Shown piece after piece: positions 12,042-55,225 of a stretch of DNA of 64,000 nt (positions are counted from its first letter, which is position 1; every line of letters begins with the position of its first letter). The position numbers and the translations under genes are program-made. The stretch is from a virus, in IMG/VR virus record IMGVR_UViG_3300043411_001639, positions 1-64,000 of that record. One strand, given 5' to 3'. The notes under the pieces were generated by a model, which was not told the DNA's origin, did not search any database, and saw only the letters and a list, made by a program, of their open reading frames with translations.

Positions 12042-12502
12042 GTTATTGTTATTCAGACACTAGTTTTGATGAACAAGGAAAACCTGTTTCTTCAGCAGAA
12101 TTTCTTGAGTTTAGAAACAAAGAGTTTTCTGTTGAGACATATAAGCAATGGTTGTATCTTAGAGTAACTGAAACTAATGAAGGTGTAAAAAACAAGATCT
12201 TCGTAGAAGAATATCCAGATTATTACAAACATCCTGGCAACTCTTACAGAGAGTTCTATGGGTTCAAGATCTATGCTTATAAATCATCTAACTGTCTAGG
12301 ATTCTGTGCTGTTATCCAAAACCCTGACTTGAGTTGGTGGTTTACTTCTGGATATTATGATGGTGATGATTGCACCGATGAGCAGGATCTTCTTGAAGAA
12401 TTCTTGTACAAGTCCAAATTCTTTGAAGAACAAGTTAACATACCCAATTCAATCAAAACAACATTCAAACAACTAATAAAGGAACACATAGAAAGACCAT
12501 GA
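12038..12502 (+). CDS. Hypothetical acidic protein
   Basis: 154 residues, ATGA overlap. Aromatic and acidic (SWWFTSGYYDGDDCTDEQD). No domain recognised. Coupled to the nucleotidyltransferase downstream. Confidence 0.65.
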   Translation: MSYCYSDTSFDEQGKPVSSAEFLEFRNKEFSVETYKQWLYLRVTETNEGVKNKIFVEEYPDYYKHPGNSYREFYGFKIYAYKSSNCLGFCAVIQNPDLSWWFTSGYYDGDDCTDEQDLLEEFLYKSKFFEEQVNIPNSIKTTFKQLIKEHIERP

Positions 12503-13179
12503 CAGTATATTATCAACAACAACAAGCAAACAGATACCTAACAAAAATTGAACAACTCTTAGATCCTAATGCTGTTTTAGCTGGCGGGGCTCCTAGAGAT
12601 TGGTTCTTTAACCGAAACGCTAAAGATCTAGACATCTTTGTCTATCTTGGTGAACAGAACAAAAAACCTAGTTACTGGAAACAGAAACTAGAAGACGTTG
12701 GGTTTAAGGTTAGTGCCATAAAAAACAAATATGGTCCTAAAGACGGTATGTTTGCTCAGTGTTTTGAGTGGACAAAAAATATATTTGCAAGTTGTAAACT
12801 TACTAAGTCTACTAACCAAGAAGATTACATTCTATCAATGAATCCTTATCTTGAGTGTGTAGTTGATATTGAAGTTGAACCAGGAGAGAATCCTGTTCAG
12901 ATCATGATCATGAATCAACCTGTTGATCAGTGTACTTACACTAAATTTCCAGTATCAATCTCACAGATCTGGTACAAGAATGGAAAGTTTAATAAAACTC
13001 CTGATTTTCTTGTAGGAATCAAACACAACATCATCTATCCAACTGGAATTGATAACAGTATGGATGGTAAGTACACAAAGAAAGTACGTGAGAAGTTTCC
13101 TGAGTTTGAATATCTAGACTCAAAAGATAAAGTTATTCACTTTTTGTCTGATAAACTATCTTCTACTCCTTTTCGCTGA
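12499..13179 (+). CDS. Nucleotidyltransferase-fold protein, CCA-adding/poly(A)-polymerase head-like
   Basis: 226 residues, ATGA overlap. L-A-G-G-A-P-R-D at residues 27-34 and K-D-L-D-I-F at 42-47 match the G-G-x-x-R-D ... D-x-D core of class II CCA-adding enzymes and related nucleotidyltransferases, with both metal-binding aspartates (43 and 45). It is too short to hold the usual neck and tail of a CCA enzyme. Its place just before ileS, with several phage tRNAs lacking an encoded CCA, makes a role in tRNA 3' maturation or repair attractive but unproven. Alternative: modification of another RNA or small molecule. Confidence 0.7.
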   Translation: MTVYYQQQQANRYLTKIEQLLDPNAVLAGGAPRDWFFNRNAKDLDIFVYLGEQNKKPSYWKQKLEDVGFKVSAIKNKYGPKDGMFAQCFEWTKNIFASCKLTKSTNQEDYILSMNPYLECVVDIEVEPGENPVQIMIMNQPVDQCTYTKFPVSISQIWYKNGKFNKTPDFLVGIKHNIIYPTGIDNSMDGKYTKKVREKFPEFEYLDSKDKVIHFLSDKLSSTPFR

Positions 13180-13205: not shown

Positions 13206-13206
13206 G

Positions 13207-13235
13207 TTGCATCTTCCGTACAGTTCTGGTAGTGT
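13207..13235 (+). promoter_or_regulatory. TTGCAT-N17-TAGTGT promoter of ileS
   Basis: TTGCAT 13207-13212, 17-base spacer, TAGTGT 13230-13235. The ileS ATG lies 13 bases after the -10 box, leaving a leader of only a few bases, so no Shine-Dalgarno can fit. Confidence 0.75.
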
Positions 13236-13247
13236 TGCCAGACTGCC

Positions 13248-16214
13248 ATGAAAACCCTCAATCAAAAACTATTTGTTGAAACAGAACTAAAGTGGCTGAA
13301 GCATTGGGAAAAAACCGATGTATTCAAGAAAACACTAAGGGGCGAGAAAACCTATGTTTTCTATGATGGTCCTCCTTTTGCTACAGGTTTACCTCATTAT
13401 GGACACTTGTTAGCTTCTGTGGTAAAAGATGTTGTACCACGTTACTTTGCAATGAATGGTTTTTTGGTTGAAAGACAGTTTGGTTGGGATTGTCATGGTG
13501 TTCCAGTTGAGAATGAAGTACAGAACCAACTAGGTTTGTTTTCAAATAAACAAGTTGTTGACTATGGAGTTGACAAATTTAATGAAACATGCCGTTCTGT
13601 TGTAAGACGTTATACTCAAGAATGGAAAGAAACTGTCCATAGAGTAGGACGTTGGGTTGATATGGAAAAACCGTATCACACAATGGACTTTGATTTCATG
13701 AATTCAGTCTGGTGGGTTTGGAAAGCTCTCTATGATAAGAACCTAACCTATCAAGACTATAAAGTTGTACCATATTCTGTTGGACTAGGTTCAGGTCTAT
13801 CAAACTTTGAGGCTGGACAGAACTATAAAACAGTTCAAGATCTTAGTTTAACAGTTGAGTTTGAAACAGATAACGGATATACTTTACTAGCTTGGACAAC
13901 GACACCTTGGACACTTCCAATGAATGTTGGCCTTGCTGTAAATCCAGAACTAAACTATGTTGTAGTTGAACAAAACAACAAACAATATGTGGTAGCAGAG
14001 AATCAACTAACAAACCAGTTTGTTGCTGGAACATCAGTCAAACAAACTCTAAAAGGTACTGATTTAGTAGGACTAACCTACAAACCTCTGTTTGGTTTTT
14101 CCTGTAAAAATCCCGAAGTAGTAGCAGGATCATTTGTTACTGATAGTTCTGGTACTGGAGTTGTTCATTTAGCTCCTTGTTATGGAGAAGAAGATTTTAG
14201 TTGTGCCAAAGCTAATGATCTTCCTTTGTTTCATGGTGTAAATGATGAGGGAAAATACTATCCTGGATTTGGTGAATTGTCGGGCAAACTAGCCTTTGAT
14301 TCAAACAACCTAGTAGCAGAACTTCTAGGAGATAAAGTTTATAAACAGCAAGTTTATGAGCATGAGTATCCTTTCTGTTACAGAACAGATACTAGACTTA
14401 TGTACCGCGCTGTAAATAGCTGGTATGTAAAGGTAGAACAGAATAGGGGGCAACTTCTAAAAAACAACAAGTTAACAAACTGGAATCCTGAATCTCTCAG
14501 GGATGGAAGATTTGGAAACTGGCTAGAAAACTGTAGAGATTGGTCTGTTTCACGTAGTAGATTTTGGGGAACTCCTCTGCCTGTATGGTTAAACAAACAA
14601 GGAGAAGAAGTTTGTTTTGGTTCTGCTAAAGAACTAGAGGAAGCTACAGGAGTTGTTTTAACAGATCTTCACAGTCATTTCTTAAAAGACGTTGTGGTTA
14701 AATCTAAACAAGGTGGCGATGATCTTGTTTGGTGTGGTTTTGTGTTTGATTGTTGGTTTGAAAGTGGAGCTATGCCTTATGCTAAGGTTGGTTTCCCTTG
14801 GAAAACCCAAACACTTAACACTCCAGCAGATTTTGTTGCCGAAGGACTTGATCAAACAAGAGGTTGGTTTTATACCCTTAGTGTTCTTAGTACACTGTTG
14901 TTTGACCAACCACCGTTTAAAAACGTAAGTGTTAATGGACTTGTTCTTGCTGAAGATGGCAAGAAGATGTCAAAAAAACTAAAGAACTATCCAGATCCTT
15001 CAGAAGTTCTTGAAGCTTATGGTGCTGATGCTCTAAGACTTTATTTCATGAGCAAACCAGTTGTTTGTGGGACTGAAATGAAGTTTTCTAAGAAAGAAGT
15101 TGAAGAACAAGTTAAGAAAAACGTTCTTAGACTTTATAATGCCTATCACCTGTTTGTTACCTATGCAAATCTACATGATCTTAAACCAACTGGAACAGTT
15201 CAACCAACTAAGTTCTTAAACAAATACTTGGTTGAACTTACTAATAACCTTACCTTTAATCTTTCTCAAGCTGTTGAATCATATCACCTTGAAAAAGTAA
15301 CAGGGTTTGTTACTGAGTATGTAGAGAACCTAGTAAACAACCATGTCAGACTAGCTAAACCGTTACTAAAACAAGGTGATGTTGAAACATTAAACGTAGG
15401 TTATCAGTGTTTACTCCAACTAGCTGTTAGTTTAGCACCTTTTACACCTTTCATGGCAGAAGAGTTTTATCAATCACTTGAAGGTCCACTAGAGAGTGTT
15501 CACCTTGAGAGTTATCCTAAACCTGAAAACCTGTTTAGTGTTTATGAAAAACAAATGGTAAGACTAGTAGAGGTTCTGGAGTTAGGGAGAAACTACAGAG
15601 AAAAACACAAACTTAGTTTAAAACTACCTCTTAAAACAATGGTAGTTTATGAGAACAACCTTGATGTTCTTGATGAGTTAAGAGAACTGGAAGATTGTTT
15701 AAAACAAGAACTAAACTTTGAACAGGTGTTGTTTAGTTCTGATGTTGAGTCTGTGTTTGATTTTAAAGTCAAACCCAACTTTAGCCTTCTTGGAAGAAAA
15801 CTAGGGCCTGAGATGAAATCATTTGTTGTTTATTTGGCAACTCTTGATACTCAAACAACACTCAATCTTGTCAAGACAAGAACAGGATTACAGTTTAAAG
15901 GAGTTGAAGTAACGTTTGATGAACTGGTTGTTGAAAAATTATCAAAACTCCCAGATGTTCTTACAACACCAAAGTATTGTTTAAGGTTTGATCTAACAGT
16001 AGATGAAAAACAACTTGAACAAGAACGGGAAAGAGAACTGTTCAGAGAAGTACAGGAACTACGTAAACAACTAAAACTAACTCCGGGTGATAAAGTAGTT
16101 CTGTGTTCAACAGAAGTTCCATCAGAAAGCCTTAGAAACAAACTAATGACAGAAGCTTTTGTTGTTGGGTTCAACACTGGTTCAGAAACAATGATGTTGC
16201 AACCTGTCCCGTGA
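13248..16214 (+). CDS. ileS: Isoleucyl-tRNA synthetase, type II
   Basis: 988 residues, near the usual length. It charges tRNA-Ile. The Rossmann signature DGPPFATGLPHYGHLL (40-55) and F-G-W-D-C-H-G-V-P-V-E are of the eukaryotic/MupA-like type II class, not the G-x-I-H-I-G-H form of E. coli. The editing domain is intact: W-T-T-T-P-W-T-L-P from residue 216 and GTGVVHLAPCYGEEDF from residue 302. G-K-K-M-S-K-K lies near 571-577, followed by an anticodon-binding domain. Type II enzymes are generally mupirocin-insensitive. Two tRNA-Ile(UAU) genes (16784, 44727) are its likely clients, letting the phage read AUA without the host lysidine pathway. Led by its own near-leaderless promoter. Confidence 0.96.
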   Translation: MKTLNQKLFVETELKWLKHWEKTDVFKKTLRGEKTYVFYDGPPFATGLPHYGHLLASVVKDVVPRYFAMNGFLVERQFGWDCHGVPVENEVQNQLGLFSNKQVVDYGVDKFNETCRSVVRRYTQEWKETVHRVGRWVDMEKPYHTMDFDFMNSVWWVWKALYDKNLTYQDYKVVPYSVGLGSGLSNFEAGQNYKTVQDLSLTVEFETDNGYTLLAWTTTPWTLPMNVGLAVNPELNYVVVEQNNKQYVVAENQLTNQFVAGTSVKQTLKGTDLVGLTYKPLFGFSCKNPEVVAGSFVTDSSGTGVVHLAPCYGEEDFSCAKANDLPLFHGVNDEGKYYPGFGELSGKLAFDSNNLVAELLGDKVYKQQVYEHEYPFCYRTDTRLMYRAVNSWYVKVEQNRGQLLKNNKLTNWNPESLRDGRFGNWLENCRDWSVSRSRFWGTPLPVWLNKQGEEVCFGSAKELEEATGVVLTDLHSHFLKDVVVKSKQGGDDLVWCGFVFDCWFESGAMPYAKVGFPWKTQTLNTPADFVAEGLDQTRGWFYTLSVLSTLLFDQPPFKNVSVNGLVLAEDGKKMSKKLKNYPDPSEVLEAYGADALRLYFMSKPVVCGTEMKFSKKEVEEQVKKNVLRLYNAYHLFVTYANLHDLKPTGTVQPTKFLNKYLVELTNNLTFNLSQAVESYHLEKVTGFVTEYVENLVNNHVRLAKPLLKQGDVETLNVGYQCLLQLAVSLAPFTPFMAEEFYQSLEGPLESVHLESYPKPENLFSVYEKQMVRLVEVLELGRNYREKHKLSLKLPLKTMVVYENNLDVLDELRELEDCLKQELNFEQVLFSSDVESVFDFKVKPNFSLLGRKLGPEMKSFVVYLATLDTQTTLNLVKTRTGLQFKGVEVTFDELVVEKLSKLPDVLTTPKYCLRFDLTVDEKQLEQERERELFREVQELRKQLKLTPGDKVVLCSTEVPSESLRNKLMTEAFVVGFNTGSETMMLQPVP

Positions 16215-16225
16215 CGTGGTAGTGT
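16197..16225 (+). promoter_or_regulatory. TTGCAA-N17-TAGTGT promoter inside ileS 3' end
   Basis: TTGCAA 16197-16202 lies in the last ileS codons, TAGTGT 16220-16225 just after the stop. The leader carries the recurring GGTTGTCAG segment and GGGAGAC before ATG 16267. Confidence 0.75.
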
Positions 16226-16266
16226 CAGGTTGTCAGTAGGGCAGAGTAACACGGGAGACACTAAAG

Positions 16267-16464
16267 ATGGCAACAATCAAGTTTTCAGAGGGTGGTTCAC
16301 TCAAGAAGGTAATTGTAACTCTCTGTTGTCCTGAATGTGACAACTCAGAGGAATATTACGTAACCGAACTGATGGATCTTGGTTATCCACGTTGCGTTGA
16401 CTGTGACAAGTTTAAGAATGTTCTAACAGAACTCGTAGCTGTGGAAGGATATGTAGATCCATGA
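16267..16464 (+). CDS. Zinc-ribbon small protein
   Basis: 65 residues with GGGAGAC upstream of ATG. C-C-P-E-C near residue 19 and C-V-D-C near residue 42 give a four-cysteine zinc site. First gene after the promoter; its codons are less AT-biased than those of the distal genes. Confidence 0.65.
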   Translation: MATIKFSEGGSLKKVIVTLCCPECDNSEEYYVTELMDLGYPRCVDCDKFKNVLTELVAVEGYVDP

Positions 16465-16547
16465 TTTCAGACGTAGAAAAATGGATTGTTGTTTCAATCT
16501 TTCTAACTCTAGCAATGTTTGCAGTTGTTATTTTCCTGGTGTTCTGA
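16461..16547 (+). CDS. Single-pass membrane microprotein
   Basis: 28 residues, ATGA overlap. Residues 8-28 are a continuous membrane span (IVVSIFLTLAMFAVVIFLVF) with a short acidic N-terminus. Confidence 0.55.
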   Translation: MISDVEKWIVVSIFLTLAMFAVVIFLVF

Positions 16548-16548
16548 C

Positions 16549-16728
16549 ATGAAAAAAAAAACATGTGATGCATGTGGCAAAGAAACCTCAACGTTTGTTA
16601 CAGCAGTAAAACTTGGAGAGGTTAAAGTCTTTTGTCAAGAATGTGTTGTAAACTATCTCCAAGTTTCTGTTGATAGAATTGTAAATCTCATGTGGTGGGC
16701 TAAAAACAACGGTCCAAATCCTGGTTGA
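16549..16728 (+). CDS. Zinc-ribbon small protein
   Basis: 59 residues from ATG 16549, one base after the previous stop. MKKKTCDACGKE and C-Q-E-C form a zinc site like that of short anti-terminator-type or adaptor proteins. Function unknown. Confidence 0.6.
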   Translation: MKKKTCDACGKETSTFVTAVKLGEVKVFCQECVVNYLQVSVDRIVNLMWWAKNNGPNPG

Positions 16729-16783
16729 TTATCTATGTCTCAAGTTGGGCGGCAGTCCTCAAAAAACCTACTTTAAGGGTTTT

Positions 16784-16857
16784 GCGCGAGTCGGATAGGT
16801 TGTCCGGTTTGGCCTTATAAGCCAATAGGCTGAGTTCAATTCTCAGCTCGCGCACCA
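16784..16857 (+). tRNA. tRNA-Ile(UAU)
   Basis: Acceptor GCGCGAG/CTCGCGC perfect, discriminator A, encoded CCA. Anticodon arm TTGGC, loop CTTATAA, GCCAA gives UAU, reading AUA. T-arm CTGAG/CTCAG around TTCAATT. The D-arm is slightly irregular (GGAT..GTCC or CGGA..TCCG register). UAU is rare in bacteria, which normally read AUA with a lysidine-modified CAU tRNA. Confidence 0.85.
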
Positions 16858-21472: not shown

Positions 21473-22552
21473 ATGTCTACCAACAAGAAGATTCTCGTGG
21501 GAATGTCTGGTGGTGTGGATTCTGCTGTTGTTGCGGCTATTCTTGCAAAACAGGGGAATGAAGTCATCGCCTATACTCTGAAACTTCTTGAATCTTTTTC
21601 TGTTGATGAAGAAGGTGAAGAGGATAACACCAAGGGATGTTGTTCTTTTGAAGACATCAAAGATGCTACTCGTGTCTGTGACAAGATTGGTGGAATCAAC
21701 CACGTTGTTCAGAACTGGAAGAACCAGTTTTATCAGACTGTTATCAAGCCTTATATTGATGGTGCTCGTGAAGGTGTAACTACCAATCCTTGCATCACCT
21801 GTAATTCTTCTATTAAAATCCCTGTTTTGATGGCTGTTGCTGCAAAACTTGGATGTTCAAAAGTAGCAACAGGGCATTATGCCCGTGTTTCCAGTGATGG
21901 AAAACATATCATGCGTGCTGCTAATCTCAAAAAAGATCAATCTTATTTTCTCTGGGATCTTACTCCCGATATCATCTCACGTCTTGAGTTTCCTCTTGGT
22001 GAAGTTTCAGACAAAGAAGATACTCGGGAAATGGCTCGTGAGTTTAATCTTCATATTTCTGAGAAGAAAGATTCAACCAATCTCTGTTTTCTAAAGGGAG
22101 GAACAAAGGAAGAGTTCCTTTCTAAGAATGGCGTAGTATCTGAACCTGGGAACTTCGTTGACACCAACGGAACTATTCTAGGAAAGCACCAGGGATATAC
22201 AAAATATGTTCCTGGGCAACGTACAGGTTTGAACTCTAGCAACGGTGCAAGGTTTGTTCTTAACGTAGTTGCAGATACTAATACTGTTGTAGTAGGCGAC
22301 AAGTCTACTGATGGAATTTCAACCGTAACTATTAACAAAGCTAAGTGGGTTGATGGAACTAAGCCTTCACTTGATGCTCTTGAAGGTGTTTGCAGGTATC
22401 ATTCTGCACCTGTTGGAATCAAGTCTATCACTGAAAACTCTGATAACACTTGGACAGTTGAGTTTAATACTCCTGTGTTTGGTATCACCAAAGGTCAACA
22501 TCTTGTGTTTTATCAGAATGACTGCGTGATGGGTGGTGGAGTGTTTGTTTAA
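21473..22552 (+). CDS. mnmA: tRNA-specific 2-thiouridylase MnmA
   Basis: 359 residues, normal length. It puts sulfur on C2 of wobble U34 in tRNA-Lys, Glu and Gln. The ATP-binding PP-loop SGGVDS is at 12-17; the two catalytic cysteines are in N-P-C-I-T-C (Cys107) and N-L-C-F-L (Cys205); G-H-Y-A-R, D-Q-S-Y-F-L-W-D-L and P-G-Q-R-T-G-L are also conserved. All key residues are present, so it should be active if the host supplies sulfur carriers. Likely client: the phage tRNA-Lys(UUU) at 53436 and host tRNAs. Codon use is clearly less AT-rich than in the preceding genes. Leaderless promoter. Confidence 0.96.
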   Translation: MSTNKKILVGMSGGVDSAVVAAILAKQGNEVIAYTLKLLESFSVDEEGEEDNTKGCCSFEDIKDATRVCDKIGGINHVVQNWKNQFYQTVIKPYIDGAREGVTTNPCITCNSSIKIPVLMAVAAKLGCSKVATGHYARVSSDGKHIMRAANLKKDQSYFLWDLTPDIISRLEFPLGEVSDKEDTREMAREFNLHISEKKDSTNLCFLKGGTKEEFLSKNGVVSEPGNFVDTNGTILGKHQGYTKYVPGQRTGLNSSNGARFVLNVVADTNTVVVGDKSTDGISTVTINKAKWVDGTKPSLDALEGVCRYHSAPVGIKSITENSDNTWTVEFNTPVFGITKGQHLVFYQNDCVMGGGVFV

Positions 22553-44726: not shown

Positions 44727-44798
44727 GCAGGGAACCCTCTGGTTGGGGGAGCGACTCTTATAAAGTCGTCATGGTGGGTTCAATTCCCACTCCCTGTA
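44727..44798 (+). tRNA. tRNA-Ile(UAU), second copy
   Basis: Acceptor GCAGGGA/TCCCTGT, discriminator A, CTA follows instead of CCA. Anticodon arm CGACT, loop CTTATAA, AGTCG gives UAU. T-arm GTGGG/CCCAC with TTCAATT. D-arm short but compatible. Its sequence differs clearly from the copy at 16784, so it is not a recent duplicate. Confidence 0.88.
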
Positions 44799-44815
44799 CT
44801 AATAAACCCTAAGTC

Positions 44816-44843
44816 GGTGGTTCAAATCCACCCTGGCGGACTA
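44816..44843 (+). tRNA. Orphan 3' half of a tRNA
   Basis: T-arm GGTGG/CCACC with loop TTCAAAT, then CTGGCGG, A and CTA, the same tail as other tRNAs here. The matching 5' acceptor (CCGCCAG) is not found nearby, so this is a truncated tRNA or a hybrid remnant. Confidence 0.55.
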
Positions 44844-53575: not shown

Positions 53576-53610
53576 AAGAATGTAGCAGGAAACAACCAAC
53601 GGAGTCAAGA

Positions 53611-54003
53611 ATGGCAAAGCGCACGACGGAAGAAACCATCGCTCACACCGTCAAGGTCAAGGGTATCGTCGCCGACCGCTCCGGCATCAACAACACGCGT
53701 GGCGCGCGTGCGATCATCGCGTCGGAAGTCTTCGGCGTCTCGCAGACACTCCGCAACCACGGCGCCGCCGCCGTCTTCGCGCTCCGCAACGGGGATAACG
53801 TCGTGGTGCTGTCCCGCGTCGCCCGCAAGGGCCGCCCGCGCTGGAGGCAAGTCGGGCACGGATCTTCCACGGTCATCACGTTCGCCCGCGTGCTCTCCGG
53901 TGGCAAGGTTTCCAAGGTCGTCAAGGCGTCCACGCTTGCGGAGCTCTGCAACAAGGGTGCCCGCTACATCGGGACGCGCGCCAACCTCTACGGCAACGGC
54001 TAG
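53611..54003 (+). CDS. GC-rich hypothetical protein
   Basis: 130 residues, basic, with strong C/G third-position bias on this frame. MAKRTTEETIAHTVKVKG start, R-K-G-R-P-R-W-R-Q-V-G in the middle. No family recognised. The other long frames over it are shadows of its composition. Confidence 0.75.
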   Translation: MAKRTTEETIAHTVKVKGIVADRSGINNTRGARAIIASEVFGVSQTLRNHGAAAVFALRNGDNVVVLSRVARKGRPRWRQVGHGSSTVITFARVLSGGKVSKVVKASTLAELCNKGARYIGTRANLYGNG

Positions 54004-54051
54004 AACCCGCTGGCACGAAGGTTGCAAGGGCAAGGCAAAGAAAACCCGCTG

Positions 54052-54080
54052 TTGCAACCTGTTTCGGAACCTGCTAGAGT
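54052..54080 (+). promoter_or_regulatory. TTGCAA-N17-TAGAGT promoter, tandem set 1 of 3
   Basis: TTGCAA 54052-54057, 17-base spacer, TAGAGT 54075-54080. First of three promoters spaced 85 and 78 bases apart before one gene. Confidence 0.75.
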
Positions 54081-54136
54081 CTGAATGTAAGGTGAGAGGT
54101 AGGGAAGACAGAGAACCGGAAGGAAAAAGAATCCGG

Positions 54137-54165
54137 TTGCAACCCTCCCCGAAACCTGCTAGAGT
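54137..54165 (+). promoter_or_regulatory. TTGCAA-N17-TAGAGT promoter, tandem set 2 of 3
   Basis: TTGCAA 54137-54142, 17-base spacer, TAGAGT 54160-54165. A GTG lies exactly 7 bases past the -10 box, the leaderless spacing. Confidence 0.75.
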
Positions 54166-54171
54166 CAGAGA

Positions 54172-54240
54172 GTGAGAAAAGGAACGGGGCCAGAAACTAG
54201 ACGAAACAATCTGGTTGCAACCCTCCGAAGAGTCTGGTAA
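54172..54240 (+). CDS. Possible leaderless 22-residue peptide
   Basis: GTG 54172 is at the leaderless distance from TAGAGT. The peptide is basic (MRKGTGPETRRNNLV start); its TAA is part of the next promoter's TAAGGT. Either a real regulatory peptide or a chance frame. Confidence 0.35.
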   Translation: MRKGTGPETRRNNLVATLRRVW

Positions 54241-54243
54241 GGT
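54215..54243 (+). promoter_or_regulatory. TTGCAA-N17-TAAGGT promoter, tandem set 3 of 3
   Basis: TTGCAA 54215-54220, 17-base spacer, TAAGGT 54238-54243. Leader with AGGAAAG before ATG 54315. Confidence 0.75.
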
Positions 54244-54314
54244 AAGAGTCAGAAAGGGAGTCAGGGTGGCAATGTCGCCTAGCCCACTCCCAAACCAGGA
54301 AAGAAAAAAGAATA

Positions 54315-55034
54315 ATGAACTCCATCAACGCCACCTCGCCCGTCGTTTCCTCGGATTCCATCGTCGCCGACCCCAACGCCTCGCAGGAGAACACCATGCA
54401 CACCCCCGACAACTCCGCCGACGCTTCGCCCCTGTCCATGCGCCCCGCGGATCGCGCCGCCCGCGGCGAGTCCCTCACGCCCGACGAGGAGGGCGCGCTC
54501 GCGGCCAGCGACGCGGCGGAGTTCCTCGCCTACCTCCGCGCACAGCGCGCGTACCTCGCCTCCGCGCTCGCGGCGGCGAAGGCCCCCAAGGTTCCGGGGA
54601 AGCGCGGGCCGCAGGGTCCCCAGCGCGGGAAGGTGGTCACGCTGGCCGACGGCCGGATGATGATCGTCGGCGCGGGTCTCGGCAAGCGGGCCGCGTTCAA
54701 TTCCGCGAAGGGTGCGCTCGGGGCGCGCGCGGAGCTCCTCCCCGGCGACGCGCTGAACATCGCCCTCGTGACGTTCGGGGCGGACGGGAGCGGCGTCCTC
54801 TACACCGTCAACGGTGTCGCGGGCGAGACGCCCCGCGGGAAGGGTTCGCCCGGTGTGTCGCTCTCTTGCACGCGGGCGGACAACGGCGAAGAGGTCGTGT
54901 TGTTTCCGACGATGGATTCCATCGTGGACGCGGTGTGCATCACGGGTTCCGCGGCGCTCCTCGCGGTGCTTCCGGTGCTTCAAGCGCAGAAGGTGCGCGC
55001 CGCGCGCGCAGCGAAGACGCCCGCCACGGTCTGA
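54315..55034 (+). CDS. GC-rich, alanine-rich protein behind three promoters
   Basis: 239 residues. A Ser/Asp/Ala-rich, probably disordered N-terminus (about 1-60), then a helix (FLAYLRAQRAYLASALAAAK), a basic G-K-R-G-P-Q-G-P-Q linker, and a beta-rich domain (TLADGRMMIVGAGLG, LNIALVTFGADGSG). Third positions are almost all G or C. Three tandem promoters and a strong terminator make it the most heavily promoted gene here. No family recognised. Confidence 0.75.
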   Translation: MNSINATSPVVSSDSIVADPNASQENTMHTPDNSADASPLSMRPADRAARGESLTPDEEGALAASDAAEFLAYLRAQRAYLASALAAAKAPKVPGKRGPQGPQRGKVVTLADGRMMIVGAGLGKRAAFNSAKGALGARAELLPGDALNIALVTFGADGSGVLYTVNGVAGETPRGKGSPGVSLSCTRADNGEEVVLFPTMDSIVDAVCITGSAALLAVLPVLQAQKVRAARAAKTPATV

Positions 55035-55063
55035 CGCCTCACCCGCCAGAATCCCACCTAAAG

Positions 55064-55119
55064 AAACCCCCCGCGACGACCCTAGAGAATAGGGAACCGT
55101 CCGGGGGTTTCCCCGTTTT
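55064..55119 (+). terminator. Strong intrinsic terminator
   Basis: AAACCCCC (55064-55071) pairs with GGGGGTTT (55103-55110); inside, GACG/CGTC and CCTA/TAGG extend the hairpin. CCCCGTTTT follows. Ends the GC-rich, promoter-dense block. Confidence 0.75.
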
Positions 55120-55225
55120 ACAACTTTGACCCCCTCTAGCCCCTGTACCCCCCCACCTCTACCTACCCGGACCCAGGAGGTGGTTGGCATGGAGGGTGCA
55201 TGACCCACGAGATTCTAAACCAGAT

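Follow-up and report, generated by a model that had tools for sequence, protein, structure and literature searches.

An isoleucyl-tRNA synthetase without isoleucine in a phage genome, and other phage synthetases depleted of their own amino acid

Introduction

Genomes of huge phages have been described with as many as 15 aminoacyl-tRNA synthetases and as many as 67 tRNAs, which are proposed to redirect host translation (PMC7162821); the passages of that paper on the phylogeny and proposed use of the synthetases make no mention of loss of the cognate amino acid. Here we analyze an isoleucyl-tRNA synthetase (IleRS; enzymes of other specificities are abbreviated likewise) encoded by a phage, the gene being located in the first 64 kb, hereafter the window, of the 156.7-kb virus record IMGVR_UViG_3300043411_001639. 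The closest described enzymes are the type II IleRSs, i.e., Priestia megaterium IleRS2 (8c8u), yeast IleRS (8wnd) and MupA/MupB, which the window enzyme resembles in fold, domains, HxGH and KMSK motifs, editing domain and position in the tree. Unlike these enzymes, which contain many isoleucine residues, the window enzyme has none.

The nearest known idea is the low cognate bias of biosynthetic enzymes, a statistical tendency of the last enzymes in cellular amino-acid biosynthesis (PMC4209129). The two cases share the logic that a protein relieving a shortage should avoid the scarce amino acid, but differ in that removal is complete here, concerns tRNA synthetases, occurs in phages, and is accompanied by a restriction of codons at the level of isoacceptors; the term 'tRNA synthetase' has no match in the main text of that paper. 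A second line of work concerns codons that are robust to starvation. Serine codons that are still read in Bacillus subtilis under serine starvation are AGY (PMC3862929), the leucine codons predicted to be least sensitive to leucine limitation are UUG and UUA (PMC1183508), and selective charging of isoacceptors under starvation is treated in a further source (PMC3783181). These studies deal with cellular genes, leaders and a biofilm repressor, and phage synthetase genes are not described in them. An earlier description of synthetases that lack the amino acid they load was not found in the open literature, preprints and most subscription journals lying outside the search. The kind of enzyme and a cellular precedent for the logic are known, whereas the completeness, the phage setting and the codon signature appear to be new.

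A type II IleRS without isoleucine

The window gene (Table 1) is an intact open reading frame (ORF) that begins with ATG, and is the only IleRS copy in the 156.7-kb record. Judged by its sequence, the product is an isoleucyl-tRNA synthetase with predicted aminoacylation activity. Its score against TIGR00392 (ileS) is 763.6 bits, above the cut-off of 621.4, the catalytic signatures are present as HYGH at position 50 (HxGH) and KMSKK at 573 (KMSK), and the motifs of the CP1 editing site are retained as WTTTPWT at 216 and GTGVVHLAPCYGE at 302. The best relatives in the PDB, by sequence as well as by fold, are the eukaryotic (yeast) and Priestia type 2 enzymes, and in our tree the protein nests inside the cellular type II IleRSs, apart from type I, with a sequence from a proteobacterial metagenome-assembled genome as nearest neighbour (43–45% identity). 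The AlphaFold model (mean pLDDT 91.8, pTM 0.86) has the predicted fold of a complete IleRS, and Foldseek gives a TM value of 0.88 to the yeast IleRS–tRNA complex over nearly the whole length of the protein. An intact type II IleRS of 988 residues, as put forward in an original prediction made for this DNA, is confirmed by the ORF, the TIGR00392 score, the motifs, the PDB relatives and the tree. Insensitivity to mupirocin is plausible by analogy, considering the type II membership and the titles of the PDB entries.

Not one of the 988 codons specifies isoleucine, AUU, AUC and AUA all being absent, and approximately 52 isoleucines would be expected. The other ORFs of the phage contain on average ~6% isoleucine, and the 79 cellular type II IleRSs have 27–72 isoleucines each (median 5.2%); the probability of finding none in 988 residues is ~10^-28 if the phage background is taken as reference and 10^-23 if the median of the cellular type II enzymes is. 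Of the 20 residues, isoleucine shows the strongest depletion in the window IleRS (rank 1, log10P -23.1), and valine and leucine are raised. At the 41 alignment columns that hold isoleucine in most cellular relatives, the window residue is valine in 21 and leucine in 10. Base composition is not the cause of the absence, because ATH triplets are frequent out of frame, with 65 and 28 occurrences in the two other frames of the gene. No second isoleucine-free ORF longer than 100 residues was present in the phage stretches examined, and an altered genetic code was dropped as an explanation, since isoleucine is used normally in other phage genes.

The lack of isoleucine could in principle be a neutral by-product of the amino-acid usage of the genome or of the family fold, in keeping with the raised valine and leucine and the ready exchange of these three residues in protein cores. 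Such an origin has next to no probability in our judgment, given the isoleucine content of the other phage ORFs, the common out-of-frame ATH triplets and the isoleucines kept in cellular relatives, and it is contradicted by a depletion that tracks enzyme specificity and is reciprocal for Ile/Val and Asp/Asn, as detailed below.

Isoleucine-free IleRSs in other phages

A scan of viral contigs with the window IleRS as single query gave no match; when IMG/VR was scanned with an alignment of IleRSs instead, 39 loci were obtained. The IleRSs of LR745206, a phage of 635 kb, and of its clade contain no isoleucine, the few residues counted in two members (L031 and L032) being situated 5' of the likely true start. 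A further IleRS, on a 181-kb contig (L057), has 0 isoleucines in 841 residues, and the remaining enzymes from the IMG/VR scan contain 3–11%. The deep split between type I and type II parts the window IleRS from the LR745206 clade and from L057, which are both type I, and the isoleucine-free state requires at least three changes on the tree, a quick reconstruction in which detail is limited by long branches and skewed composition. On these sequences, isoleucine-free IleRS has evolved at least three times in phages.

The two best matches among entries filed as phage were public records labeled 'Bacteriophage sp.', MT835484.1 and MT835536.1 (L016 and L017), which carry housekeeping genes and an ordinary IleRS and appear to be bacterial. 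They were rejected as phage matches, being probably bacterial contigs filed as phage, and were kept as controls only.

Cognate depletion across specificities

Other synthetase families were searched in LR745206 and related records, with specificity assigned by NCBIfam independently of composition; the comparative set is largely metagenomic, ORF calling was simple, and the survey covered enzymes other than those for Ala, Cys and Phe. In LR745206, the IleRS has no Ile and 59 Val, and the ValRS has no Val and 58 Ile. The depletion of Asp and Asn is reciprocal too, following the specificity of the enzyme. Among huge uncultured phages there are examples of ValRS, AspRS, AsnRS, ThrRS, ProRS, TyrRS, ArgRS, HisRS, TrpRS and, internally, MetRS from which the cognate residue is missing altogether, where ArgRS is assigned with a weak score (39 bits) and the zero counts in HisRS and TrpRS are by themselves weakly significant, His and Trp being rare. 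A single cognate residue is left in examples of LysRS, GlyRS (likewise a weak assignment, ~57 bits) and GlnRS, and 3–6 Glu remain in the ~490 residues of examples of GluRS.

In 40 of the 50 phage synthetases tabulated, no other of the 20 residues is as strongly depleted as the cognate one. Added up, log10P amounts to -373.6, against -188 at best when the labels were permuted 5000 times. The pattern spans unrelated phages and ~17 specificities. Cellular AspRS, AsnRS and LysRS retain their cognate residues.

Where cognate residues remain, their codons are unevenly chosen. All 18 leucines in the LeuRS of LR745206 and all 20 in that of IMGVR_UViG_3300049793_000366 are encoded by TTG, and the LeuRS genes of several related phages use mostly TTG against a TTA-rich genome background. 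The SerRS of IMGVR_UViG_3300049793_000366 has 12 serines, all AGY, and no TCN codon. Genome-wide in these phages, TTG accounts for 11–13% of the Leu codons and AGY for ~25% of the Ser codons. The ThrRSs of two other phages use mainly ACG (9/10 and 6/7). ATA is almost unused in mildly depleted IleRS genes, several of which are strongly ATC-biased (22/27 in L033 vs 13% in the background); ordinary translational selection could contribute to this preference. Because the leftover Leu and Ser codons are confined to one isoacceptor class, selection would act on charged isoacceptors and not on the amino acid as such, and the classes concerned, AGY for Ser and UUG/UUA for Leu, are those of the starvation studies (PMC1183508, PMC3862929, PMC3783181).

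These codons also bear on the idea that a mischarging IleRS would corrupt itself unless it were free of isoleucine, so that purging shields the enzyme from its own errors. Cognate-free synthetases across specificities are predicted on this basis too, but neither the use of a single isoacceptor for the leftover Leu and Ser codons nor the purging of synthetases with little misactivation is, and the window IleRS keeps its editing-site motifs; we consider escape from such an error loop very improbable.

Three loci of the survey deserve separate mention. L129:1480–2748, which was excluded from the synthetase statistics, scores best as a non-discriminating aspartate--tRNA(Asn) ligase (AspRS), yet has 0 Asn and 20 Asp, a composition that may be a sign of serving tRNA-Asn. 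The GluRSs of two huge phages (L404:1495–2967 and L405:1495–2973) contain 3 and 5 Gln and 3 and 6 Glu, respectively, and depletion of both residues would accord with a non-discriminating enzyme that has tRNA-Gln as a second substrate. In the MetRS of LR745206 (L026), no ATG, GTG or TTG is found in frame ahead of the conserved N-terminus; it thus seems to be without a usual start codon, with an ATA or ATC start or a sequence error as possible reasons.

tRNA-Ile(UAU) genes and AUA decoding

The window contains two tRNA genes with anticodon UAU, at the positions originally predicted, and both are confirmed by ARAGORN and by Rfam scores above the cut-off of 29 bits (Table 1). The D-arm is irregular in both, the minimum-energy fold having one base between acceptor and D-stem and a short GGUU-containing loop, and the ARAGORN drawing a D-stem of 3 bp; the other tRNAs of the phage are without such irregularity. 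The irregular D-arms could reflect orthogonality or escape from a nuclease. Just 3' of the second gene lies an orphan tRNA 3' half consisting of the T-arm and the 3' acceptor strand, for which no 5' half was seen.

AUA can be read without TilS by tRNA-Ile(UAU), as in Mycoplasma mobile, and the window resembles this case in combining tRNA-Ile(UAU) with an IleRS. The original prediction held that the phage carries a self-contained pair for AUA decoding which bypasses TilS and the lysidine step, the enzyme being incidentally insensitive to mupirocin. The co-occurrence of a type II IleRS and two UAU tRNAs in one genome stands; however, the AUA enrichment that had been set in advance as decisive for such a pair is absent. 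AUA makes up 28% of the isoleucine codons in the window genes, which is no higher than the A-ending share among A-, T- and C-ending codons in the Val, Thr, Pro and Gly families (28–42%). Furthermore, in contrast to TilS-free AUA decoding, all isoleucine codons are shunned in the phage IleRS gene, and a problem limited to AUA leaves the loss of AUU and AUC unexplained. We regard the decoding pair as an improbable account of the gene. Since AUU and AUC are removed as well, the limiting factor suggested by the signature is charged Ile-tRNA of any kind and not only the reading of AUA; a UAU-specific role may exist alongside the purging of isoleucine, though it is not the remarkable trait of this gene.

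A proposed self-bootstrapping synthetase

The explanation that we prefer, and deem probable, is that selection removed all isoleucine from the IleRS, thereby keeping the mRNA of the enzyme translatable when little or no charged Ile-tRNA is left. On loss of charged Ile-tRNA, ribosomes would stall at the first isoleucine codon in nearly all messages, that of an ordinary IleRS included, whereas an isoleucine-free IleRS mRNA would offer no stall site and would be read through to its end. The new enzyme would then charge tRNA-Ile, i.e., the phage UAU tRNAs and presumably host tRNAs too, and other messages could be translated again. The IleRS would be one instance of a broader practice among some huge phages, in which the synthetase is stripped of its own amino acid or, for Leu and Ser, where this is impossible, is written with the codons of one isoacceptor only. 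We infer the mechanism from sequence, a step for which the codon signature provides support. Candidate causes of the shortage would be host defence, shut-off of the host by the phage, an inhibitor of IleRS, and demand exceeding supply. We favour host charging capacity as the failing element, or a host tRNA pool that phage tRNAs could replace, because a synthetase needs both amino acid and tRNA and an extra copy would be useless if free isoleucine were missing.

A milder form of shortage must be weighed here. If phage demand moderately outran host supply of charged tRNA, a cognate-poor synthetase would automatically be favoured, as a regulator-free counterpart of attenuation or T-box control. 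Such passive homeostasis predicts the identical codon signature, is in line with the graded depletion among phages, e.g., ThrRS with 0 to ~4% Thr, and can draw on the low cognate bias theory for biosynthetic enzymes (PMC4209129). Total removal in the window IleRS, however, implies that even a single cognate codon is costly, which fits better with a near-complete loss of charged tRNA, and we rate the passive form as rather unlikely.

Several observations weigh against the self-bootstrapping synthetase. The window IleRS stands alone, with no close relative, and further phage genes that would be required early are unpurged, as are many huge-phage IleRSs, most phage ThrRSs, and the TyrRSs of the cultured jumbo phages GAP32, BF, CBB and XbC2. 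Moreover, the scarcity of charged tRNA during infection, which would be the selective force, is itself inferred from the sequences. To the most general statement we assign even chances, namely that some huge phages meet a collapse of charged tRNA and have repeatedly evolved synthetases, for a majority of the 20 amino acids, that are cognate-free or use starvation-robust codons only, so that translation can be restarted from nothing, the window IleRS being the type II, single-enzyme case.

If the self-bootstrapping reading is correct, the gene would show clearly how selection can rewrite entire enzymes to overcome a bootstrapping problem, the maker of Ile-tRNA having become independent of Ile-tRNA. 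On this reading, pools of charged tRNA should fail while some huge phages infect their hosts, which would point to a phage–host conflict so far unrecognised from gene content. The data also suggest that a single amino acid is fully dispensable in large enzymes of ancient origin (IleRS, ValRS, AspRS, ThrRS and others), a matter of interest for synthetic biology, for proteins of reduced alphabet and for early genetic codes.

Promoter-like motif and gene neighbourhood

The motif GTTGCAACC-N12-TGCTAG occurs 35 times in the window compared with 1.1 expected matches, and its promoter-like sites, which include 10711, 20102, 41908, 52012 and 54051, often lie just 10–15 nt 5' of a start codon. The probable promoter of the IleRS gene (Table 1) ends 15 nt 5' of the ATG, so that the leader would be very short, and no obvious Shine-Dalgarno sequence is present.

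Table 1 Features of the window and of the remainder of the virus record
Feature	Position	Strand	Evidence or remark
Probable phage promoter of IleRS gene	13206–13232	+	Weak match, 3 mismatches, to GTTGCAACC-N12-TGCTAG
Type II IleRS gene, 988 aa, zero isoleucine codons	13248–16214	+	ORF, TIGR00392, codon count, AlphaFold, Foldseek
tRNA-Ile(UAU), 3' CCA encoded, irregular D-arm	16784–16857	+	ARAGORN; Rfam 44.1 bits; fold
Second tRNA-Ile(UAU), irregular D-arm	44727–44799	+	ARAGORN; Rfam 32.3 bits; fold
Orphan tRNA 3' half	44811–44832		T-arm and 3' acceptor strand
Nucleotidyltransferase-like ORF	12499–13179		phrog_10174/1614; motif GGAPRDW...DLDIF
MnmA-like tRNA 2-thiouridylase	21473–22552		Pfam PF03054
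GC-rich region	~53600–55200		~50–60% GC
GroEL	127002–128651 of the record (L015:7002–8651)	-	phrog_5725

The terminase of the phage has distant kin among the terminases of T4-like, Microcystis and Desulfovibrio phages. Directly 5' of the IleRS gene lies a nucleotidyltransferase-like ORF, the product of which might act on tRNA 3' ends. The phage also encodes an MnmA-like tRNA 2-thiouridylase and, in the part of the record beyond the window, a GroEL. A GC-rich region of host-like composition, in a phage of 35% GC, adjoins two tRNA genes.

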